64,000 bases of DNA. It comes from Mucilaginibacter terrae. Its GTDB lineage: Bacteria > Bacteroidota > Bacteroidia > Sphingobacteriales > Sphingobacteriaceae. Made by a program: the position numbers and the translations under genes. Every line of letters starts with the position of its first letter. Positions within the stretch are counted from its first letter, which is position 1. Where the stretch lies: NCBI RefSeq assembly GCF_031951985.1, contig NZ_JAVLVU010000001.1, positions 3,038,001 to 3,102,000 of the forward strand, in the 5' to 3' direction. This document shows, piece by piece, positions 48,537 to 58,065 of the stretch. The notes below the pieces were generated by a model. It did no database searches and was not told the origin of the DNA. It saw only the letters and a list, made by a program, of their open reading frames with translations.

Positions 48537-48603
48537 CAAAGTTGGATTGCTAACAGGAACAGCATCTTAACATTTGCTAAAAAATGCTGTTGATATTTGT
48601 CAA
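48537..48603 (-). promoter_or_regulatory. Candidate Crp/Fnr-type promoter of the DUF5686 gene
   Basis: On the minus strand: TTGACAAATATCAA (48603-48590), a weaker TTAGCAAATGTTAA (48580-48567) 23 bp on, and a -7-like CAACTTTG (48544-48537; 7 of 8 positions of TAnnTTTG) whose centre is 33 bp beyond the second box. The geometry equals that at 161-227. Predicted transcription start near 48533 leaves a 26-nt leader to the Met at 48507. Confidence 0.55.
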
Positions 48604-48854: not shown

Positions 48855-49445
48855 ATGTACGAAGCGCTGTACCACTACATTGAAAACTACTCATCGTTAA
48901 CATTAAACAACGATGATAGAGCGCTCATTCGCGATAGCTTTAAACACAAACGCCTACGCAAAAAGCAGTATTACTTGCAGGAAGGCGATGTGAATAAGTA
49001 CATTGGTTTTGTTATTAAAGGCGCTTTGCGCATGTACTCGGTAGATAGCAAAGGGCACGAACATATTGTGCGCTTTAGCCTCGAAAACTGGTGGGTGGGC
49101 GATTATGAAAGTTACATGATGCTTACGCCATCAAAATTTAATATTGATGCCGTTGAGGATGCCGAACTGCTCATGATATCAAACACCCAAAGCGAGGAAT
49201 TGCAAGGCAAAGTACCTGCCTTTGCCGGGATGATACGTGAGCTGGACAAGCGCGCCAACATAGCCACCCAAAACCGCGTGCATGCCGCCATTAGCCTAAC
49301 CGCCGAAGAGCGCTACCAGCAATTGCAGGAAACCTATCCCGGCTTTTTACAGCGCTTTCCGCAAAACATGATTGCGTCTTATTTGGGTATTTCGCCTGAG
49401 ACGTTGAGCCGGATTAGAAAGAGTAGTGTAGTGGGGAAGAAGTAA
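48855..49445 (+). CDS. Crp/Fnr-family transcription regulator
   Basis: 196 residues: a cyclic-nucleotide-binding-like beta roll (KKQYYLQEGDVNKYIGFVIKGALRM; HIVRFSLENWWVGDY) and a C-terminal helix-turn-helix (FPQNMIASYLGISPETLSRIRKS). The cAMP-pocket RxS motif is absent and there is no Cys cluster, so the ligand is not cAMP or an FNR-type FeS centre of the normal kind. The recognition helix has Glu182, Ser185 and Arg186 in the E-x-x-S-R order by which FNR reads TTGAT half-sites, matching the TTGAC/T boxes found nearby. Confidence 0.9.
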   Translation: MYEALYHYIENYSSLTLNNDDRALIRDSFKHKRLRKKQYYLQEGDVNKYIGFVIKGALRMYSVDSKGHEHIVRFSLENWWVGDYESYMMLTPSKFNIDAVEDAELLMISNTQSEELQGKVPAFAGMIRELDKRANIATQNRVHAAISLTAEERYQQLQETYPGFLQRFPQNMIASYLGISPETLSRIRKSSVVGKK

Positions 49446-49498: not shown

Positions 49499-50140
49499 AT
49501 GGAACCCCTCGATAGCTTGAATTATAGAATGCTCGCAGCTAATCAGCTCGCTAAAAGTGAATATGTTGAGGCAATCAATTTTTGTTTAAAGAATTTCAAG
49601 GCTTTGGAAATCCCAACCGATAGAGACATGTATCAAATATCTTCTATCCTTGTTAAAGCCGTAATCAATTATTATAACCTTAATATTACTGAGTCAAATG
49701 AAATTTATATAGCCTTTGAGAATCGAATATTGAAAGCTATTTCCACAATACCTTTTAATAACACAGAAAATCTGTTAAAACTCAAGATGTATACATCTCA
49801 AGATTATCTTGAATGGGGAAAGTATCAAGGTAAAAAGATATCCGAAGTCTTGTTACTTGACTTTGAATATCTCTTATGGTGCTTAATTAACTTAGACCAT
49901 TTTTCTATAGACCCTCCCTTTTTTATATACTTTTTTTTACTCACTAAAAAAGATTTAAAAAAGGAGATTGAATTCAACTTAATTAAGCAATTATTGTATT
50001 CCAATTATTTAGAGGAAGATAGTGAATTAGAGACAGACGACCGATCCAATTACTACTATGGTTATAACTCCTCTGATGAGTTTAACTTTTATGAGGGATA
50101 TGAAGGCAACAACGACGCTTGGGACGAAAGAAACTCTTAA
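49499..50140 (+). CDS. Unknown protein with ExoX-C-like motif
   Basis: 213 residues, A/T-rich codons unlike the flanking genes. The part near residues 115-140, YLEWGKYQGKKISEVLLLDF then EYLLWCL, resembles the small 'FGKYKGK...YLxWL' domain found at the C-terminus of exodeoxyribonuclease X-like and other bacterial proteins. Residues 1-100 are helical and TPR-like in look; the tail is very acidic and Tyr/Asn-rich. No catalytic residues recognised. It lies 53 bp after the Crp/Fnr gene and may be recently acquired. Confidence 0.6.
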   Translation: MEPLDSLNYRMLAANQLAKSEYVEAINFCLKNFKALEIPTDRDMYQISSILVKAVINYYNLNITESNEIYIAFENRILKAISTIPFNNTENLLKLKMYTSQDYLEWGKYQGKKISEVLLLDFEYLLWCLINLDHFSIDPPFFIYFFLLTKKDLKKEIEFNLIKQLLYSNYLEEDSELETDDRSNYYYGYNSSDEFNFYEGYEGNNDAWDERNS

Positions 50141-50170: not shown

Positions 50171-50236
50171 TTGACAAATATCAATGTCATTTTTTGCCAT
50201 ATATCATTACCCGGCTCCGGGCATCCCGTAGTTTTG
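50171..50236 (+). promoter_or_regulatory. Candidate Crp/Fnr-type promoter of the barrel/kinase-like gene
   Basis: TTGACAAATATCAA (50171-50184), then TTGCCATATATCAT (50194-50207) 23 bp on, then an exact -7 element TAGTTTTG (50229-50236) centred 32 bp beyond the second box. Predicted start of transcription near 50243 gives a leader of about 96 nt to the ATG at 50339. Same arrangement as at 161 and 48603. Confidence 0.6.
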
Positions 50237-50338: not shown

Positions 50339-52903
50339 ATGATTCGCAAATTTACCCTCCTCGCAGTGTTACTTAGTGCCACAACTATGAGCTATGCCCA
50401 GCGCAAAACTCCGGCTGTATTCCCCGATAGCGTTTTGGTTAAAGTGCATCCGTCGTACGATAGTGTGAGCGGCATACACCGCTGGTTATTCGGTAAAAAT
50501 TACCGCGAGGAGTGGGCCACGGTTGTGAAGTTGCCGGTTATTAAAATATCAGAATTTTCGGGGGGATTAAAGCCGCTTCGCGAAGGTGGGGGTATGCAAT
50601 CCAAATCGTTACGTTTGCAGGATAAAAGCGGTAAGGAATGGGTAATACGCAGTGTTGAAAAAACGCCTGAAAAGATATTGCCGCCCAACTTTAAAGGCAC
50701 ATTTGCGGTAGACTGGATTGACGATGCGCTGAGCAGTCAGCACCCGTTTTCGGCACTGGTGGTTCCGCCGCTGGCCGATGCTGCTAAGGTGCCGCATGCC
50801 AACCCCATTATTGGTGTAATGGTGCCCGACCCAGCCTTGGGCGAATACAGCAAAATATTTAACGGACTTGTGGTACTGCTGGAAGAACGCGAGCCGAATG
50901 GCAAATCGGACAATACGCCAAAAATGCTGAGCGAGCTTAAAGACGATAACGACAACCATTTTGAAACCGAGCAGTTTTTGCGTGCCCGCATGCTCGATTT
51001 GCTTTTGGGCGACTGGGACCGCCACGAAGATCAATGGCGTTGGGCTTATCAAAAGAAAGATAAAAATAAACAATACTATGCCGTTCCGCGCGACCGCGAC
51101 CAGGTGTTTCACCTGAGCGAAGGCGTTTTACCATCCCTGGCGGCCGTATCATGGATCAGTCCCACACTTGATCATTTCGACGGTGAAATTCCGCGGGTAA
51201 AATACTCGCTGTTTAAAACCCGCTTTATGCAGGTATACCCGGATATGCAAATTACGCATGCCGAATGGATGCGCATAGCCAACGAGTTTATTAAAGCCGA
51301 AACCGATGAAGTGCTTGAGGCTGCTTTGAAGCGCCTCCCGCCCGAGGTTTACAAATTGCGCCACGATGTGCTTTTGGCTAAACTTAAAAAGCGCCGTGAT
51401 AATATTCCGGCGGCAATGGACGAATACTACCGCTTTATTAACCAAACGGTAGACTTACGCACCAGCGACAAAAATGAACAGGTAACCATCGCCGATGCCG
51501 ATAATAAAGGGCTAAGGGTACAAATCAGTAAAATTAACAAATCGGGCGAGGCTGAAAGCACGTTGCTCGACATGGTTTATGATCCTGAAATTACCCGCGA
51601 AGTTCGCCTGTACGTTGAAGGCGGCGACGATAAGGTTATAGTTAATAACGCCTCATCGCCCATAAAGCTGCGTGTTATTGGTGGTACCGGGCAAAAAACC
51701 TATGAAATTAATAAAACCGAGAGCCGGGTGCGGGTTTACAGCCGTAAAGACAGCGTTACCTTTACCGGTAATGGCAGCGTAGGCAAACACCTTAGTAATG
51801 ATTCGTTAAACACACGCTTTGTTCAAAACAACCCTTATAATGTTTGGATGCCGCTGGCCACAGCCGCCATTAACGCAGATGATGGTTTTTTAATAGGTGC
51901 CGGGTTTAAGTATACCCGCCGCGATGGTTTCCGTAAGTTGCCTTACGCCAGCGTGCAGCAGCTTATGGTTACCCATGCCTTTGCTACCGATGCCTTCCGC
52001 ATACGTTATAACGGGGAGTGGATTGATGCCATTGGCAAGGCCGACATAACTATTAACGCCTTTGTACAGGCCCCAAACAATACCCTCAACTTTTTTGGCC
52101 GTGGTAATGAAACCCCATTGGTCAAATTTCAGGGTTATCGACGCTTTTACCGTACCCGTTATAATACCTATCAATTCGACCCTGCCCTGCGCTGGAACCT
52201 TGGATCTAATACCACCATCAGTGCCGGGCCGTCATTTCAATTTTATCGCTTAAACCGAGAGGACAATGAGGGGCGGTTTATTAATAATCCGGGCCGTATA
52301 AACTCATACGATAGCCTAACCATTAATAAAGACAAAGCCCACTTAGGCTTGCTGGTTAACATTAACAGCAATCAGCGTAATAACAACATTTTGCCAAGTA
52401 ACGGGTATTATGCTAACGTAACGTTACAGGCATACAACGGGTTAAACAATGATACCAAATCGTTTGCGCAAATTCGGCCGGAGTTTACTTATTATTTAAG
52501 CCTCAACAAAAAGGGCACATTCGTACTAACCGACCGTGTTGGCGGCGGGGTAAGCATTGGCAAACCTGCCTTTTACCAATCTATGTTTTTAGGCGGACAG
52601 GGCGGTAACCTGTTGGGTTATTTAGGTAACCGCTTTGCGGGCGATCATATGTTTTACAACAACCTGCAGGCGCGGTTAAACTTATTTAATATTGCCAGCT
52701 ACGTATTGCCCGGCCAATTGGGTATAACCGGTTTTTACGATACCGGCAGGGTGTGGGTAAAAGGCGAATCATCAGACAAATGGCATGCAGGTACCGGCGG
52801 CGGTGTTTACTTTGCGCCGGCAAGTTTAGCCGTTATACAGGTTTTAGCCGGCCATTCAAAAGAGGGTTGGTACCCGTATGTGTCGCTTAATGTTAGGTTA
52901 TAA
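50339..52903 (+). CDS. Omp85/BamA-like barrel with kinase-like N-terminal region
   Basis: 854 residues with a signal peptide (LLAVLLSATTMSYAQ). Residues about 80-260 contain features of an atypical kinase fold: a Gly-rich start (SGGLKPLREGGGMQSKSLRL), a VIRSVEK strand, then MLDLLLGDWDRHEDQW (Asp226 in the DRH motif) and VPRDRDQVF (Asp253, metal-binding place), as in HipA and FAM20-type kinases. The C-terminal ~330 residues are a BamA/TamA-type outer-membrane barrel (GITGFYDTGRVW, ... YPYVSLNVRL). Bacteroidetes have longer relatives with a metallophosphoesterase in front; it is missing here. Kinase activity is inference. Confidence 0.75.
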   Translation: MIRKFTLLAVLLSATTMSYAQRKTPAVFPDSVLVKVHPSYDSVSGIHRWLFGKNYREEWATVVKLPVIKISEFSGGLKPLREGGGMQSKSLRLQDKSGKEWVIRSVEKTPEKILPPNFKGTFAVDWIDDALSSQHPFSALVVPPLADAAKVPHANPIIGVMVPDPALGEYSKIFNGLVVLLEEREPNGKSDNTPKMLSELKDDNDNHFETEQFLRARMLDLLLGDWDRHEDQWRWAYQKKDKNKQYYAVPRDRDQVFHLSEGVLPSLAAVSWISPTLDHFDGEIPRVKYSLFKTRFMQVYPDMQITHAEWMRIANEFIKAETDEVLEAALKRLPPEVYKLRHDVLLAKLKKRRDNIPAAMDEYYRFINQTVDLRTSDKNEQVTIADADNKGLRVQISKINKSGEAESTLLDMVYDPEITREVRLYVEGGDDKVIVNNASSPIKLRVIGGTGQKTYEINKTESRVRVYSRKDSVTFTGNGSVGKHLSNDSLNTRFVQNNPYNVWMPLATAAINADDGFLIGAGFKYTRRDGFRKLPYASVQQLMVTHAFATDAFRIRYNGEWIDAIGKADITINAFVQAPNNTLNFFGRGNETPLVKFQGYRRFYRTRYNTYQFDPALRWNLGSNTTISAGPSFQFYRLNREDNEGRFINNPGRINSYDSLTINKDKAHLGLLVNINSNQRNNNILPSNGYYANVTLQAYNGLNNDTKSFAQIRPEFTYYLSLNKKGTFVLTDRVGGGVSIGKPAFYQSMFLGGQGGNLLGYLGNRFAGDHMFYNNLQARLNLFNIASYVLPGQLGITGFYDTGRVWVKGESSDKWHAGTGGGVYFAPASLAVIQVLAGHSKEGWYPYVSLNVRL

Positions 52904-53020: not shown

Positions 53021-55384
53021 ATGAGTGTTCAGGCATATAGAGAAAGTCCTTTCGAAATCCACATTTCGTTTCATGTGCTGATAGAGCACCTGCAGAAAGT
53101 GGCCAGAGAAGAAACGGGCTATGCCGCCGAGCGCGCAGCCGCACTCCTTAAAGAAGTTGAACCCTTTCCCGAACTGTGTAACGGCTTTACCGAGCAATCG
53201 CAGGTTGATAAGCACCAAACTGTAATTCAGCACCTCCTGGCCGATCTGTTCCCTCAGGCGCTTACTAATAATGAAATTAAGGCGGTAACATTTCCGTTCT
53301 ATGATTTTATTATCAATCAAAGTGAGCGCTTTAAAAACATACTGGCCGCCGCGGGTCCCGATTTCGACATGTCGATACGCGATTTTGACGACCATCAGTT
53401 TTATGTAATGAGTTGCTGCCTGGTGCTTAATGAGTTTTATAATACCCAGCTCGATTTTGCCAAGCCTATGTTTTACGACATACCTACAGCATCGGGCATT
53501 ATGCGCCATTACCGCATACTGTATAATGCCGATTTTCTGGAAATTATTCCAACCGAAAAGGCTGTAAAATTAACTGCAGACGACATTAACCAACTCATTA
53601 ACAATTACGACGACCTTGAGCTTTGGAAACGAATGTTTCCGAAAGGGAGCTACCTGTTAAAAGGATTTGCCATTGTAAATCTTTTTGATTCCACGGTTGA
53701 AAATGCGGTATCATCATTAAAGGGGTCACTCCTCACCGATTTAAAGGATGTGGAGTTAGAACACGATTTTGAAGATATTTTTCGCTCCATATACAAAATC
53801 CCCGACCTGCGCATAGGCTTTACTGCGTTCAACCCTGAAGATAATAAATTTACCAGCATTGCCCCGCTGCGCAAAATAAAGAGCTACATGCTGGGCGATT
53901 GTATGGATGGCGTTTGTTCTACCGATATATTAGGGCCCAAATCATACCAGGCGCTGCTTGGTAAAAGCGAATACTTTGCTGTATCAAATACCCGCGATTT
54001 CTTTTTGGAGCATCCCGAAAGCGAAATGGCACACCAGTTTTTGGGTCAGAACATTCATAGCTTTATTCTTGCACCAATTATAAAGGATGATGTGCTATTG
54101 GGAATTATCGAACTGGTTTCATCGCGCCCGGGAGAGCTGAACAGTGTGAACGCGCACAAACTTGAAGTGGTGATGCCGTTTTTGGTAAACACCATTGACA
54201 GGCAGGTAACCTACAAGCAAAACCGCGTGCAAGCCGTAATACAAAACGAGTATACCACCTTGCACCCAAGCGTGCAGTGGAAGTTTATGAAAGAGGCTTA
54301 CAAATACATTGAGCGCCGCGATAACCACCAGGAGTACCAGCTTAAAGAAATTGTATTTAACGATGTATATCCGCTTTACGGACAAATTGATATTAAAGGC
54401 TCGTCAGAATCGCGTAACAGCAGTATTCAAAAAGATTTAAACAACCAGTTGGAAGCCCTCATTCCAATTGTGTTGCATTTGCAAAGCTATGATGAACAGG
54501 CAAGCCGTTATTTAGGCCGCCTTCAGGAGTTTAAATATTTAACTCACAGCGTATCGGTATTAATACGTACCGATACCGAGCAGCAAATACAACAATTTAT
54601 TGACGAAAAAGTACACGAGCTGCTCAATGCAGCCCTTTTAAACAACCAGCATGTACAGAGTATAAGGGAATATTTTAAACAGGTTGATAAAACCACCGGT
54701 ATTTTTTATACCTACCGGCGCAAGTATGATACTACGGTATCAACCATTAACCAAAAAATGGCGGCCCTGCTTGATGAAAAACAGGCCGAGGCACAGCAAA
54801 TATTTCCGCATTATTATGAGCGCTTTAAAAGTGATGGGGTTGAGCATAATTTGTATATAGGCGCATCCATAGTGCCTAACCGTGCCTTTTTACCTGTGCA
54901 TTTCCAAAACTTACGCCTTTGGCAGTTAAAGGTGTTATGCGAAATGGAGCGCGAACACCACAGGTTTAAAACAACGCTACCCTACTGCCTCGAGGTTACT
55001 ACGCTTATACTGGCTTATAGTATAACGATGTCAATACGTTTCAGGATGGACGAGAAGCGCTTTGATGTGGATGGAACTTATAACGCCCGTTTCGAAATTG
55101 TTAAAAAACGCATTGACAAAGCACACATTAAAGGCACCGATGAGCGTATTACCCAGCCGGGCAAAGTGGTTGTAGTGTTTGCCAATAATTACGAAGAAAA
55201 AGAATACCGGGGCTACATCAAACAACTGCAGGAAAAACACATCCTTGATAGCCACATAGAAGAGCTGGAGGTAGAAGAATTACAGAGCATATCTGGCCTC
55301 AAAGCTCTAAGGGTGGGCATACTGCATGATGATATTGTTTTAATCGAAGGCTTACAAGACACTGCCAGTATTAATCAATCTTAA
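53021..55384 (+). CDS. GAF-domain protein
   Basis: 787 soluble residues. Two halves with a GAF domain near residues 275-395 (SIAPLRKIKSYMLGDCMDGVCSTD region, then HSFILAPIIKDDVLLGIIELVSS, the usual last strand of GAF). The rest is mainly helical, without HisKA, GGDEF or phosphatase motifs, so no output enzyme is seen. Large GAF proteins of this sort occur as conserved single genes in Sphingobacteria; ligand and partner are unknown. The gene stands alone behind the barrel/kinase-like gene. Confidence 0.7.
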   Translation: MSVQAYRESPFEIHISFHVLIEHLQKVAREETGYAAERAAALLKEVEPFPELCNGFTEQSQVDKHQTVIQHLLADLFPQALTNNEIKAVTFPFYDFIINQSERFKNILAAAGPDFDMSIRDFDDHQFYVMSCCLVLNEFYNTQLDFAKPMFYDIPTASGIMRHYRILYNADFLEIIPTEKAVKLTADDINQLINNYDDLELWKRMFPKGSYLLKGFAIVNLFDSTVENAVSSLKGSLLTDLKDVELEHDFEDIFRSIYKIPDLRIGFTAFNPEDNKFTSIAPLRKIKSYMLGDCMDGVCSTDILGPKSYQALLGKSEYFAVSNTRDFFLEHPESEMAHQFLGQNIHSFILAPIIKDDVLLGIIELVSSRPGELNSVNAHKLEVVMPFLVNTIDRQVTYKQNRVQAVIQNEYTTLHPSVQWKFMKEAYKYIERRDNHQEYQLKEIVFNDVYPLYGQIDIKGSSESRNSSIQKDLNNQLEALIPIVLHLQSYDEQASRYLGRLQEFKYLTHSVSVLIRTDTEQQIQQFIDEKVHELLNAALLNNQHVQSIREYFKQVDKTTGIFYTYRRKYDTTVSTINQKMAALLDEKQAEAQQIFPHYYERFKSDGVEHNLYIGASIVPNRAFLPVHFQNLRLWQLKVLCEMEREHHRFKTTLPYCLEVTTLILAYSITMSIRFRMDEKRFDVDGTYNARFEIVKKRIDKAHIKGTDERITQPGKVVVVFANNYEEKEYRGYIKQLQEKHILDSHIEELEVEELQSISGLKALRVGILHDDIVLIEGLQDTASINQS

Positions 55385-56118: not shown

Positions 56119-58065
56119 TTACTCTACCGCCGCCAGCGAGCTTTTGCTGAGTAACTTTGCGCTTTCGGCCAGTTTAATAAATTCGGCCCGGTAGCCTTCA
56201 TCATCGTTGCCTTTAGCGGCCCGGGCTATTTTGATAGCTTCATCAAAGCGGGCATTTTGTTTAAATTCCGAATCGCGCAGTAGCATCCCGAATTCGGCCA
56301 CGGCAGATGCAAAACGAAAATCGGCAGAAGCGTTTTTAAAATCAACGGGTTTATCCACCACCACGACCTGGCTTAATTTACTTACGGTACCATTGAGTTC
56401 TTTGTATCTGAATTTAATGGTTAACATATCGTTTGATACATAGTTGGTAGTTGCCTTTTCTACTTTTTGATATTTAAGCGGGTCCACAGTATGAGTAAAC
56501 TTATCATGTACGCCGGCAGGAATGATCTCGTATAAGGCAGTTACGTTGTGGCCTGCGCCCATCTCGCCGGCATCTTTCAAGTCATTGTTAAAATCTTCTT
56601 TATTAAGCATTCGGTTTTCATAACCTATTAAACGGTATGATGCTACTTTGGCAGGGTTAAATTCCAGTTGCAGTTTTACATCTTTAGCCACGGTAAACAG
56701 GGTGCCGCCAAATTCGCTAACCAAAGTTTTGCGGGCTTCGGTTATATTGTCGATGTAGGCATAGTTGCCGTTGCCTTTATCGGCCAGGGTTTCCATTTTG
56801 CTGTCTTTGTAATTGCCCATACCATAACCCAATACCGATAGAAATACCCCGCTTTTGCGTTCCTGCTCTATCAGCCTCTCCATATCCTCATCGCTTGATG
56901 CGCCTACGTTAAAATCGCCGTCGGTAGCCAGTATTACCCGGTTATTGCCGTTCTTTAAATAGTTTTGCTTGGCCGTGCGGTAGGCCAGTTTAATGCCTTC
57001 GCCGCCTGCGGTCGAGCCACCGGCATTCAGGCGGTCAATGGCATCTTTAATAGTGGTTTTCTGGTCGCCCGGTGTTGAGGGCAGCACCAAACCGGCAGCA
57101 CCGGCGTATACCACAATGGCCACCTTGTCTTGCGGGCGTAGCTGGTCGGTAAGCATTTTTAGGGATGATTGCACCAGTGGCAGTTTATTAGCCGAACCCA
57201 TTGATCCTGAAACATCTATGAGGAAAACCAGGTTTGATGCCGGTAATTTATCATTTTGCACCACACGGGCTTTAAGGCCAATGCGTAACAAGCGGTGCTG
57301 CGGGTTCCATGGCGCGGCCGAAAGCTCGGTATGTATGGCAACCGGTTCGCCGTTGGTTGGCGCGGACAGGTTATAGTTAAAGTAATTGATCATTTCCTCA
57401 ATGCGTACGGCATCTTTGGGTGGTAACTGGCCATTGTTAATAAAGCGCCTAACATTGCTGTACGATGCCGCATCCACATCAATGGAGAAGGTTGACAATG
57501 GATTGTCTTTAGAGCTTTGAAAGCCGTTTTCGGTGATGCCTTTATAATTCTCCTGCTCTTGCAGCGCCTGATAATTGCCTACAATGGGCGATACAAAACG
57601 CTGTTTTGCAAACGCTTTGCTTTTATCCATAACGGCAACACCGGCAGCCCGGCCAACAATGGCATTAGGCGCATTGGGTACCGGTGCCGGGCCAACCGTT
57701 GATACACTCCCTGTTACAACGCTTTTACGTTGCACACCATAACCCACCACAACCACCTCGTTAAGCGATCGGTTGGAGGCTTTCAGGTAGATATCTATCT
57801 TGGTGTTTTTGCCAATGTTTATGGTTTGGCTTTCAAAACCAATGTAACTAATGCTTAGTTGGGTGTTCCTTTCGGTTACACGCAAACTATAAGCCCCGGT
57901 AACATTGGTTTGCACGCCGTTTTTGGTGCCGGTTACAAGCACGGCGACTCCGGCTAAGGGCTGTTTATCGGCGGCATCGTAAACATGGCCGGTAATTGTG
58001 CGGGTTTGTGCTTTAAGGGCGGTAAAGCCGCTTAGCATCAGGAGTAATAAAATTAATCTTTTCAT
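56119..58065 (-). CDS. VWA-domain protein with carboxypeptidase-like domain and SusC-type segment
   Basis: 648 residues. Signal peptide (LILLLLMLSGFTALKAQ); carboxypeptidase-D-like domain (21-105); a SusC-like 'SLNEVVVVGYGVQRK' box and the first plug turn (VGRAAGVAV, 137-145) but no plug core and no barrel; then a YfbK-type VWA domain with intact MIDAS Asp284-x-Ser286-x-Ser288 (LIDVSGSMGS), and a C-terminal DUF3520-like part. It is divergent, with 89 bp between, from the sigma factor and anti-sigma genes, and the latter protein repeats the same plug segment. A surface or periplasmic adhesion or sensing role is possible. Confidence 0.85.
   Translation of the reverse strand: MKRLILLLLMLSGFTALKAQTRTITGHVYDAADKQPLAGVAVLVTGTKNGVQTNVTGAYSLRVTERNTQLSISYIGFESQTINIGKNTKIDIYLKASNRSLNEVVVVGYGVQRKSVVTGSVSTVGPAPVPNAPNAIVGRAAGVAVMDKSKAFAKQRFVSPIVGNYQALQEQENYKGITENGFQSSKDNPLSTFSIDVDAASYSNVRRFINNGQLPPKDAVRIEEMINYFNYNLSAPTNGEPVAIHTELSAAPWNPQHRLLRIGLKARVVQNDKLPASNLVFLIDVSGSMGSANKLPLVQSSLKMLTDQLRPQDKVAIVVYAGAAGLVLPSTPGDQKTTIKDAIDRLNAGGSTAGGEGIKLAYRTAKQNYLKNGNNRVILATDGDFNVGASSDEDMERLIEQERKSGVFLSVLGYGMGNYKDSKMETLADKGNGNYAYIDNITEARKTLVSEFGGTLFTVAKDVKLQLEFNPAKVASYRLIGYENRMLNKEDFNNDLKDAGEMGAGHNVTALYEIIPAGVHDKFTHTVDPLKYQKVEKATTNYVSNDMLTIKFRYKELNGTVSKLSQVVVVDKPVDFKNASADFRFASAVAEFGMLLRDSEFKQNARFDEAIKIARAAKGNDDEGYRAEFIKLAESAKLLSKSSLAAVE

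Follow-up and report, generated by a model that had tools for sequence, protein, structure and literature searches.

The kinase-like/Omp85 gene and its surroundings

We analyzed a 64-kb stretch of DNA from Mucilaginibacter terrae, referred to as the window. It contains a gene for an 854-residue protein, the features of which are collected in Table 1 together with those of the flanking sequence. Omp85 is recognized by Pfam at residues 602-820 (PF01103, E = 5.6e-12, 46.2 bits against a cut-off of 24), and NCBIfam Omp85_fam matches the protein below the family cut-off. The sequence-only reading of this DNA had placed DRH and DRD motifs ahead of an Omp85 barrel in an exported protein, and this description stands: residues 227-229 and 252-254 are the sole DRH and DRD in the protein and are near-invariant in its relatives, the barrel is the PF01103 match, and the signal peptide can be recognized by eye. 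In Pfam searches, the N-terminal half of the protein gave nothing above the cut-off, and neither a POTRA domain nor PF00149 was matched anywhere in the 854 residues; in the model, the place of POTRA domains is occupied by the all-beta domain.

Table 1. Features of the kinase-like/Omp85 locus, in window coordinates
Feature	Position	Strand	Basis
Crp/Fnr-like regulator gene, upstream	48855..49445	+	PF00027 cNMP_binding, E 3.5e-10
Crp/Fnr-type box TTGAC-N4-ATCAA, TTGACAAATATCAA	50171..50184	+	Motif scan of the window
TAnnTTTG match, possible -7 element	50229..50236	+	Motif scan of the window
Kinase-like/Omp85 gene	50339..52903	+	ATG start; 854 aa plus stop
Signal peptide, aa 1-20	50339..50398	+	Type I, judged by eye from the translation
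Predicted atypical kinase-fold domain, aa ~31-367	50429..51439	+	AlphaFold2 model and PDB structure matches
Candidate Gly-rich loop GGG, aa 83-85	50585..50593	+	Between strands 78-83 and 90-94 (model)
Beta3 region RSVEK, R104 to K108	50648..50662	+	Strand 100-105 in the model; putative register relative to other kinases
Catalytic-loop motif DWDRHEDQWR, aa 225-234, D227 = putative catalytic Asp	51011..51040	+	hhalign alignment with the CotH NWD region
Putative metal-binding motif PRDRD, aa 250-254	51086..51100	+	Aligned with the CotH IPxDxD-type consensus
All-beta domain, aa ~370-485, between kinase fold and barrel	51446..51793	+	Secondary structure in both models
16-strand Omp85 barrel, aa ~502-852	51842..52894	+	PF01103; strands counted in the model; BamA match
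Downstream gene, weak GAF match	53021..55384	+	Homologues in 50 of 80 relatives' loci

The promoter had been described in the same reading as having a Crp/Fnr-type arrangement. The box is present, and three boxes of this type occur in the window where 0.26 are expected. The other two perfect copies lie at 161-174 and at 48590-48603, the latter between divergent genes and upstream of the Crp/Fnr-like gene. Conservation does not extend to the relatives: counted from gene starts, with one further gene skipped because it lacks upstream sequence, a box was found within 300 bases upstream in 2 of 82 relatives' genes (L018 and L052), that is, in 0 of 36 long forms, which by their length would carry an additional phosphoesterase, and in 2 of 46 short forms. 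The closest relative, L001, has no such box in its 300 upstream bases. The box is real but local. TAnnTTTG, the -7 element motif of Bacteroidota, is no commoner in the window than expected by chance, and scans for sigma-70 promoters and terminators gave matches at chance level. Between the regulator and the kinase-like/Omp85 gene, positions 49499-50140 encode a 213-residue protein whose C-terminal motif is ExoX-like (PF20600, E = 1.8e-8). Further downstream, on the reverse strand, 56119-58065 encodes a von Willebrand factor A protein of the YfbK type that carries a CarboxypepD_reg domain at its N terminus.

Predicted fold of the N-terminal half

We modeled the full-length protein from 60 sequences (pLDDT 87.1, pTM 0.82) and counted 16 long strands in residues 502-852. 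A Foldseek search of the PDB with this model returned BamA and its relatives in the 50 top rows (best E = 3.1e-10). Residues 28-490 were modeled alone with AlphaFold2 (pLDDT 91.7, pTM 0.90) and matched 28 PDB chains at E ≤ 0.001, led by CtkA (1.6e-6) and PI4KII-alpha (1.6e-5). Further matches include a bacterial Ser/Thr kinase, a Golgi casein kinase of the FAM20 type, YihE, and HipT, and named kinases or pseudokinases make up the majority of the top 50 rows; a few rows have other titles (YihE, MSMEG_1954, Rv3197, and chain z of pre-40S particles), but these proteins are kinase-like as well. The TM-scores are modest, with TMt not above 0.54 among the rows listed.

VIA-align comparison of residues 28-490 with 999 chains gave 94 chains at Z ≥ 8. 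The best are PI4KII-beta (Z 14.6, rmsd 4.9 over 265 residues) and CotH (Z 13.1, rmsd 4.0 over 239 residues), and CtkA follows at 12.7. Models without a clear match typically reach a best Z of 7 to 8, or of 14 if they are mostly helical; ours is of mixed composition. The kinase fold is thus well supported, since the top Z exceeds that typical best of 7 to 8, and we predict with high confidence that the front half of the protein (residues ~31-367) adopts an atypical kinase fold. The sequence-only reading had called this region kinase-like, to be refuted by an unrelated fold; what was predicted is a fold of the kinase type. Its more specific comparison with HipA and FAM20 holds in part: both match in fold (Z 10.2 for HipA and 9.6 for the Golgi casein kinase of the FAM20 type), but in the model the nearest folds are those of PI4KII, CotH, and CtkA rather than FAM20.

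At the level of PDB sequence searches, this kinship is not visible: queries with the protein and with profiles found the barrel only, or weak matches outside the kinase fold. At E ≤ 1, no Pfam family, FAM20 included, matches the kinase region of the window protein. The models for CotH (PF08757) and HipA_C (PF07804) match neither the window protein nor anything else in its genome. When the kinase regions of 60 relatives were searched, the 25 Pfam families listed out of 26 were each found in one to three members at E = 0.003 or worse; none of those listed is a kinase, and CotH is not among them.

Comparison of profiles was more informative for CotH. A profile of 89 relatives aligned with one of 30 Bacteroidota CotH sequences at a score of 34.3 (hhalign E = 8e-4, probability 24%). 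The alignment spans 125 columns covering residues ~203-331, which is the C-lobe only, and it pairs D227 and PRDRD with the NWD and IPxDxD regions of CotH. By comparison, scores were 9.5-19.5 for eight decoy families and 15.4 and 15.7 for reversed profiles; 30 column shuffles did not exceed 16.7, and 30 block shuffles averaged 23.1 with a maximum of 28.2. CotH itself reached up to 23.4 against decoys and, for scale, 32.1 against HipA. A global hhalign alignment of the whole domain with CotH was sensible in the C-lobe only. By the same method, HipA_C scored 19.0 against the kinase region, which is at decoy level.

Relatives, conserved residues, and gene neighborhood

A scan of genome contigs confirmed at least 592 related stretches, the best 80 of which (L001-L080) are 45-80% identical over most of their length. 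Among 198 evenly drawn Bacteroidota genomes, 93 contain a match; sorting by hand showed that it covers the kinase region in 70 and is confined to the barrel in 23. Five plasmid records match as well, four being annotated there as hypothetical protein and one carrying no annotation at the match. We found 130 kinase-region proteins among 1,230 open reading frames. The catalytic-loop pattern fits 123 of them, which, classified by length alone, comprise 60 proteins with phosphoesterase, kinase, and barrel, 59 with kinase and barrel, and 4 with the kinase region only. P-x-D-x-D is also present in 122, two others keep a variant DRH, and six lack DRH. Both long relatives scanned with Pfam (L086 and L053) contain Metallophos (PF00149) and Omp85, and all four kinase-only relatives bearing the motif have lipobox-like N termini. 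At one locus (L206, 8129-12094) the three parts are encoded by adjacent separate genes, for a 519-residue kinase-region protein that begins with a lipobox-like sequence and matches nothing in Pfam, a 403-residue phosphoesterase, again with a lipobox-like start, and a 388-residue barrel.

In an unrooted FastTree phylogeny of a thinned set of kinase regions (87 of 129), the state changes between long and short at least six times, although the "short" labels of L035, which lies near a contig start, and of L173, an interrupted copy, may be artifacts. The window protein belongs to a short-form clade of 14 rows (local support 98), beside the long form L025. As this clade is nested among long forms, its phosphoesterase was probably lost. 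L173 (7610-9928) is a second kinase/Omp85 copy in the window genome itself, at about 4.374-4.377 Mb, with an interrupted N-terminal part; its nearest relative in our set is 53% identical.

We assessed the putative catalytic site in 129 aligned kinase regions, collected with the window region by phmmer at E ≤ 1e-10 (130 found, one dropped as too short) and including many close relatives. G83 and G84 of the candidate loop are each kept in 122 of the 129, and R104 and K108 of the beta3 region in 124 each. D129 is kept in 127, E182 in 126, and D220 and D225 in 128 each. Within the DRH motif the counts are 124 for D227, 127 for R228, and 123 for H229, with 127 for the nearby Q232; both D252 and D254 of DRD are found in 126. 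As sequence motifs, DRH and DRD exceed chance. By alignment with CotH, D227 is the putative catalytic Asp, and D252 and D254 are putative metal-binding residues. Judging from its strand position in the model, R104 appears to take the place of the beta3 Lys, which binds ATP in most kinases, with K108 four residues further on. Q232 stands where HipA and CotH have the catalytic-loop Asn. The near-invariance of the catalytic Asp residues argues against a dead pseudokinase.

The six relatives without DRH are candidate natural pseudokinases, and several of them sit on long branches (L198, 6476-9112; L213, 8862-11312; L209, 8103-10658; L214, 8642-11233; L211, 9469-11148; L212, 7436-8623). Three of these copies, L198, L211, and L212, adjoin another kinase-region copy.

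Several genes recur next to the family. In the 80 loci, an HD/PycTM gene was found in 50, the polyphosphate kinase Ppk1 in 47, an SdiA-regulated-like lipoprotein in 48, and a protein with a weak GAF match in 50, where loci cut by a contig end are scored as misses and many are close relatives from Pedobacter and Mucilaginibacter. The usual order is HD/PycTM, Ppk1, SdiA-regulated-like, kinase/Omp85, GAF, mostly with short gaps. Ppk1 lies in the same locus for 32 of 37 long forms and 18 of 46 short forms. In 40 regions of ~18 kb chosen by hand from 38 genomes, HD/PycTM-type genes occur in 23 (the homologue at L178 being PycTM without HD), GAF in 11, SdiA-like in 7, and Ppk1 in 4, all counted as presence within the region and not always adjacent. 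In one family group (f22), Ppk1 and the kinase gene are no more than 20 kb apart in 15 of 18 genomes, a proximity that shared ancestry may explain. In some genomes of this group the kinase gene is immediately followed by a class III cyclase gene and, in a few of them, then by a PycTM gene. At L178 (11146-13722), a class III cyclase with TPR repeats and then a PycTM protein directly follow the phosphoesterase-kinase-Omp85 gene. The window locus has the kinase and GAF genes only and is not next to Ppk1. An HD/PycTM, Ppk1, SdiA-like, GAF cluster is found elsewhere in the window genome, at 4.36-4.37 Mb, and the second kinase/Omp85 copy follows it at a distance of about 4 kb. Mere co-occurrence with Ppk1 was dropped as evidence: Ppk1 is present in 180 of the 198 genomes, so only its position is informative. 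Neither the linkage to Ppk1 and HD/PycTM genes nor the phosphoesterase-fused relatives had figured in the sequence-only reading.

Possible functions and known systems

We propose, giving the idea about an even chance, that the protein is an outer-membrane-anchored periplasmic phosphotransferase that is often paired with a phosphatase. The exported protein would consist of a signal peptide, an atypical kinase fold of the PI4KII/CotH/CtkA/HipA/FAM20 branch, an all-beta domain at the position that POTRA domains occupy in other Omp85 proteins, and, at the C terminus, a 16-strand Omp85 barrel. We infer an extracytoplasmic location from the signal peptide judged by eye, the barrel, and the lipobox-like starts of the kinase-only relatives. 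The kinase domain would face the periplasm, as the enzyme domain of PlpD does, and would transfer phosphate to an envelope substrate, which could be a protein, a glycan, or a lipid head group. In the longer relatives the phosphoesterase may reverse or tune this transfer, and the window clade would keep kinase and barrel without it. The donor could be an exported or scavenged nucleotide, or polyphosphate, which becomes a candidate because of the linkage to Ppk1. We consider it rather unlikely that all of this applies in its most specific form, namely that an envelope kinase and a phosphatase share one barrel at the periplasmic face of the Bacteroidota outer membrane and draw on a phosphate source that is not cytoplasmic ATP and may be polyphosphate synthesized by the linked Ppk1.

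A pseudokinase had been rated equally likely in the sequence-only reading. Such a non-catalytic protein would keep the fold either to sense a ligand such as nucleotide, phosphate, or polyphosphate or to serve as a scaffold that acts on the barrel, with any phosphate chemistry left to the phosphoesterase of the longer relatives. ATP is not expected in the periplasm, and Arg-104 and Gln-232 appear to stand where Lys and Asn are usual in other kinases; D227 is lost in 5 of 129 relatives, and the pairing of half of the DRH-less copies with another kinase-region copy would fit as well. However, at least 124 of the 129 regions keep each of D220, D225, D227, Q232, D252, and D254, and the window clade, which has no phosphoesterase, still keeps the motifs. 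The near-invariant Asp residues thus weaken the earlier estimate, the apparent replacement of the beta3 Lys by Arg speaks for retaining part of it, and we now regard a pseudokinase as possible but doubtful.

By analogy with PlpD, the domain might instead phosphorylate the head groups of lipids or glycolipids in the inner leaflet of the outer membrane, and the fused phosphoesterase would then catalyze the reverse reaction. The top VIA match is a lipid kinase, PI4KII (Z 14.6), and PlpD alters membrane lipids from the periplasmic side (PMC11116518). PI4KII and CotH are only about 1.5 Z apart, however, and CtkA leads the Foldseek list, and we find this assignment improbable. Far less probable still, and already disfavored, is the reading that the protein has a conventional Omp85 role in assembly or translocation and that its N-terminal half looks kinase-like by chance. 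The barrel is clearly Omp85, and Pfam reports nothing above its cut-off in that half, but fold, profile, and residue evidence agree with one another, and kinase-region proteins without a barrel exist.

The periplasmic phosphotransferase that we favor can be set beside several known systems. A "Metallo" Omp85 subfamily, combining Omp85 with PF00149, was described in 2014 by Heinz and Lithgow (PMC4104836), who also recognize a subgroup of Omp85 proteins without an N-terminal extension. Our two scanned relatives of ~1200-1250 residues likewise have PF00149 ahead of the barrel, and by domain content alone the long relatives would belong to this subfamily. The window protein differs in having no PF00149, and the kinase-fold domain is a new element; the word "kinase" has no occurrence in the main text of PMC4104836. 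PF00149 itself is given as a metalloprotease domain in that paper and as a calcineurin-like phosphoesterase in Pfam. PlpD-type patatin-Omp85 proteins also place an enzyme domain ahead of a 16-strand Omp85 barrel, and this domain is periplasmic (PMC11116518). PlpD, however, combines a patatin-like domain with POTRA, in place of which the window protein has a kinase fold and an all-beta domain. PI4KII, CtkA, HipA/HipT, and FAM20 resemble the kinase region in fold, but neither PDB sequence searches nor Pfam families above their cut-offs link the region to them. In the open-licence PMC literature, titles and abstracts among the matches listed describe no kinase domain carried by an Omp85 protein, which is weak evidence of absence. 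An OMP76 paper was set aside; it compares its own protein with a TonB-dependent receptor and is unrelated to the kinase/Omp85 protein.

These comparisons involve known parts; the kinase-fold domain was unrecognized before, and the combination is new. A common Bacteroidota outer-membrane family thus appears to carry an unrecognized kinase-fold domain with a conserved catalytic site. Should the domain be active, phosphorylation control would extend to the outer membrane, and phosphoesterase-Omp85 proteins would be recast as phosphatase-kinase-barrel proteins. CotH (PF08757; PDB entries 5jda and 5jd9) is similar in fold, in the motif-to-motif profile alignment of the C-lobe, and in the catalytic Asp pair (CotH D228 and D251), but its HMM misses the window protein, and CotH is not known to have a barrel. 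The D228Q and D251A variants of CotH are catalytically inactive, and the source of ATP for this kinase is an open question (PMC7821199). With an active kinase on an Omp85 barrel, the question of the extracytoplasmic phosphate donor, which is thus shared with CotH, would become directly testable.
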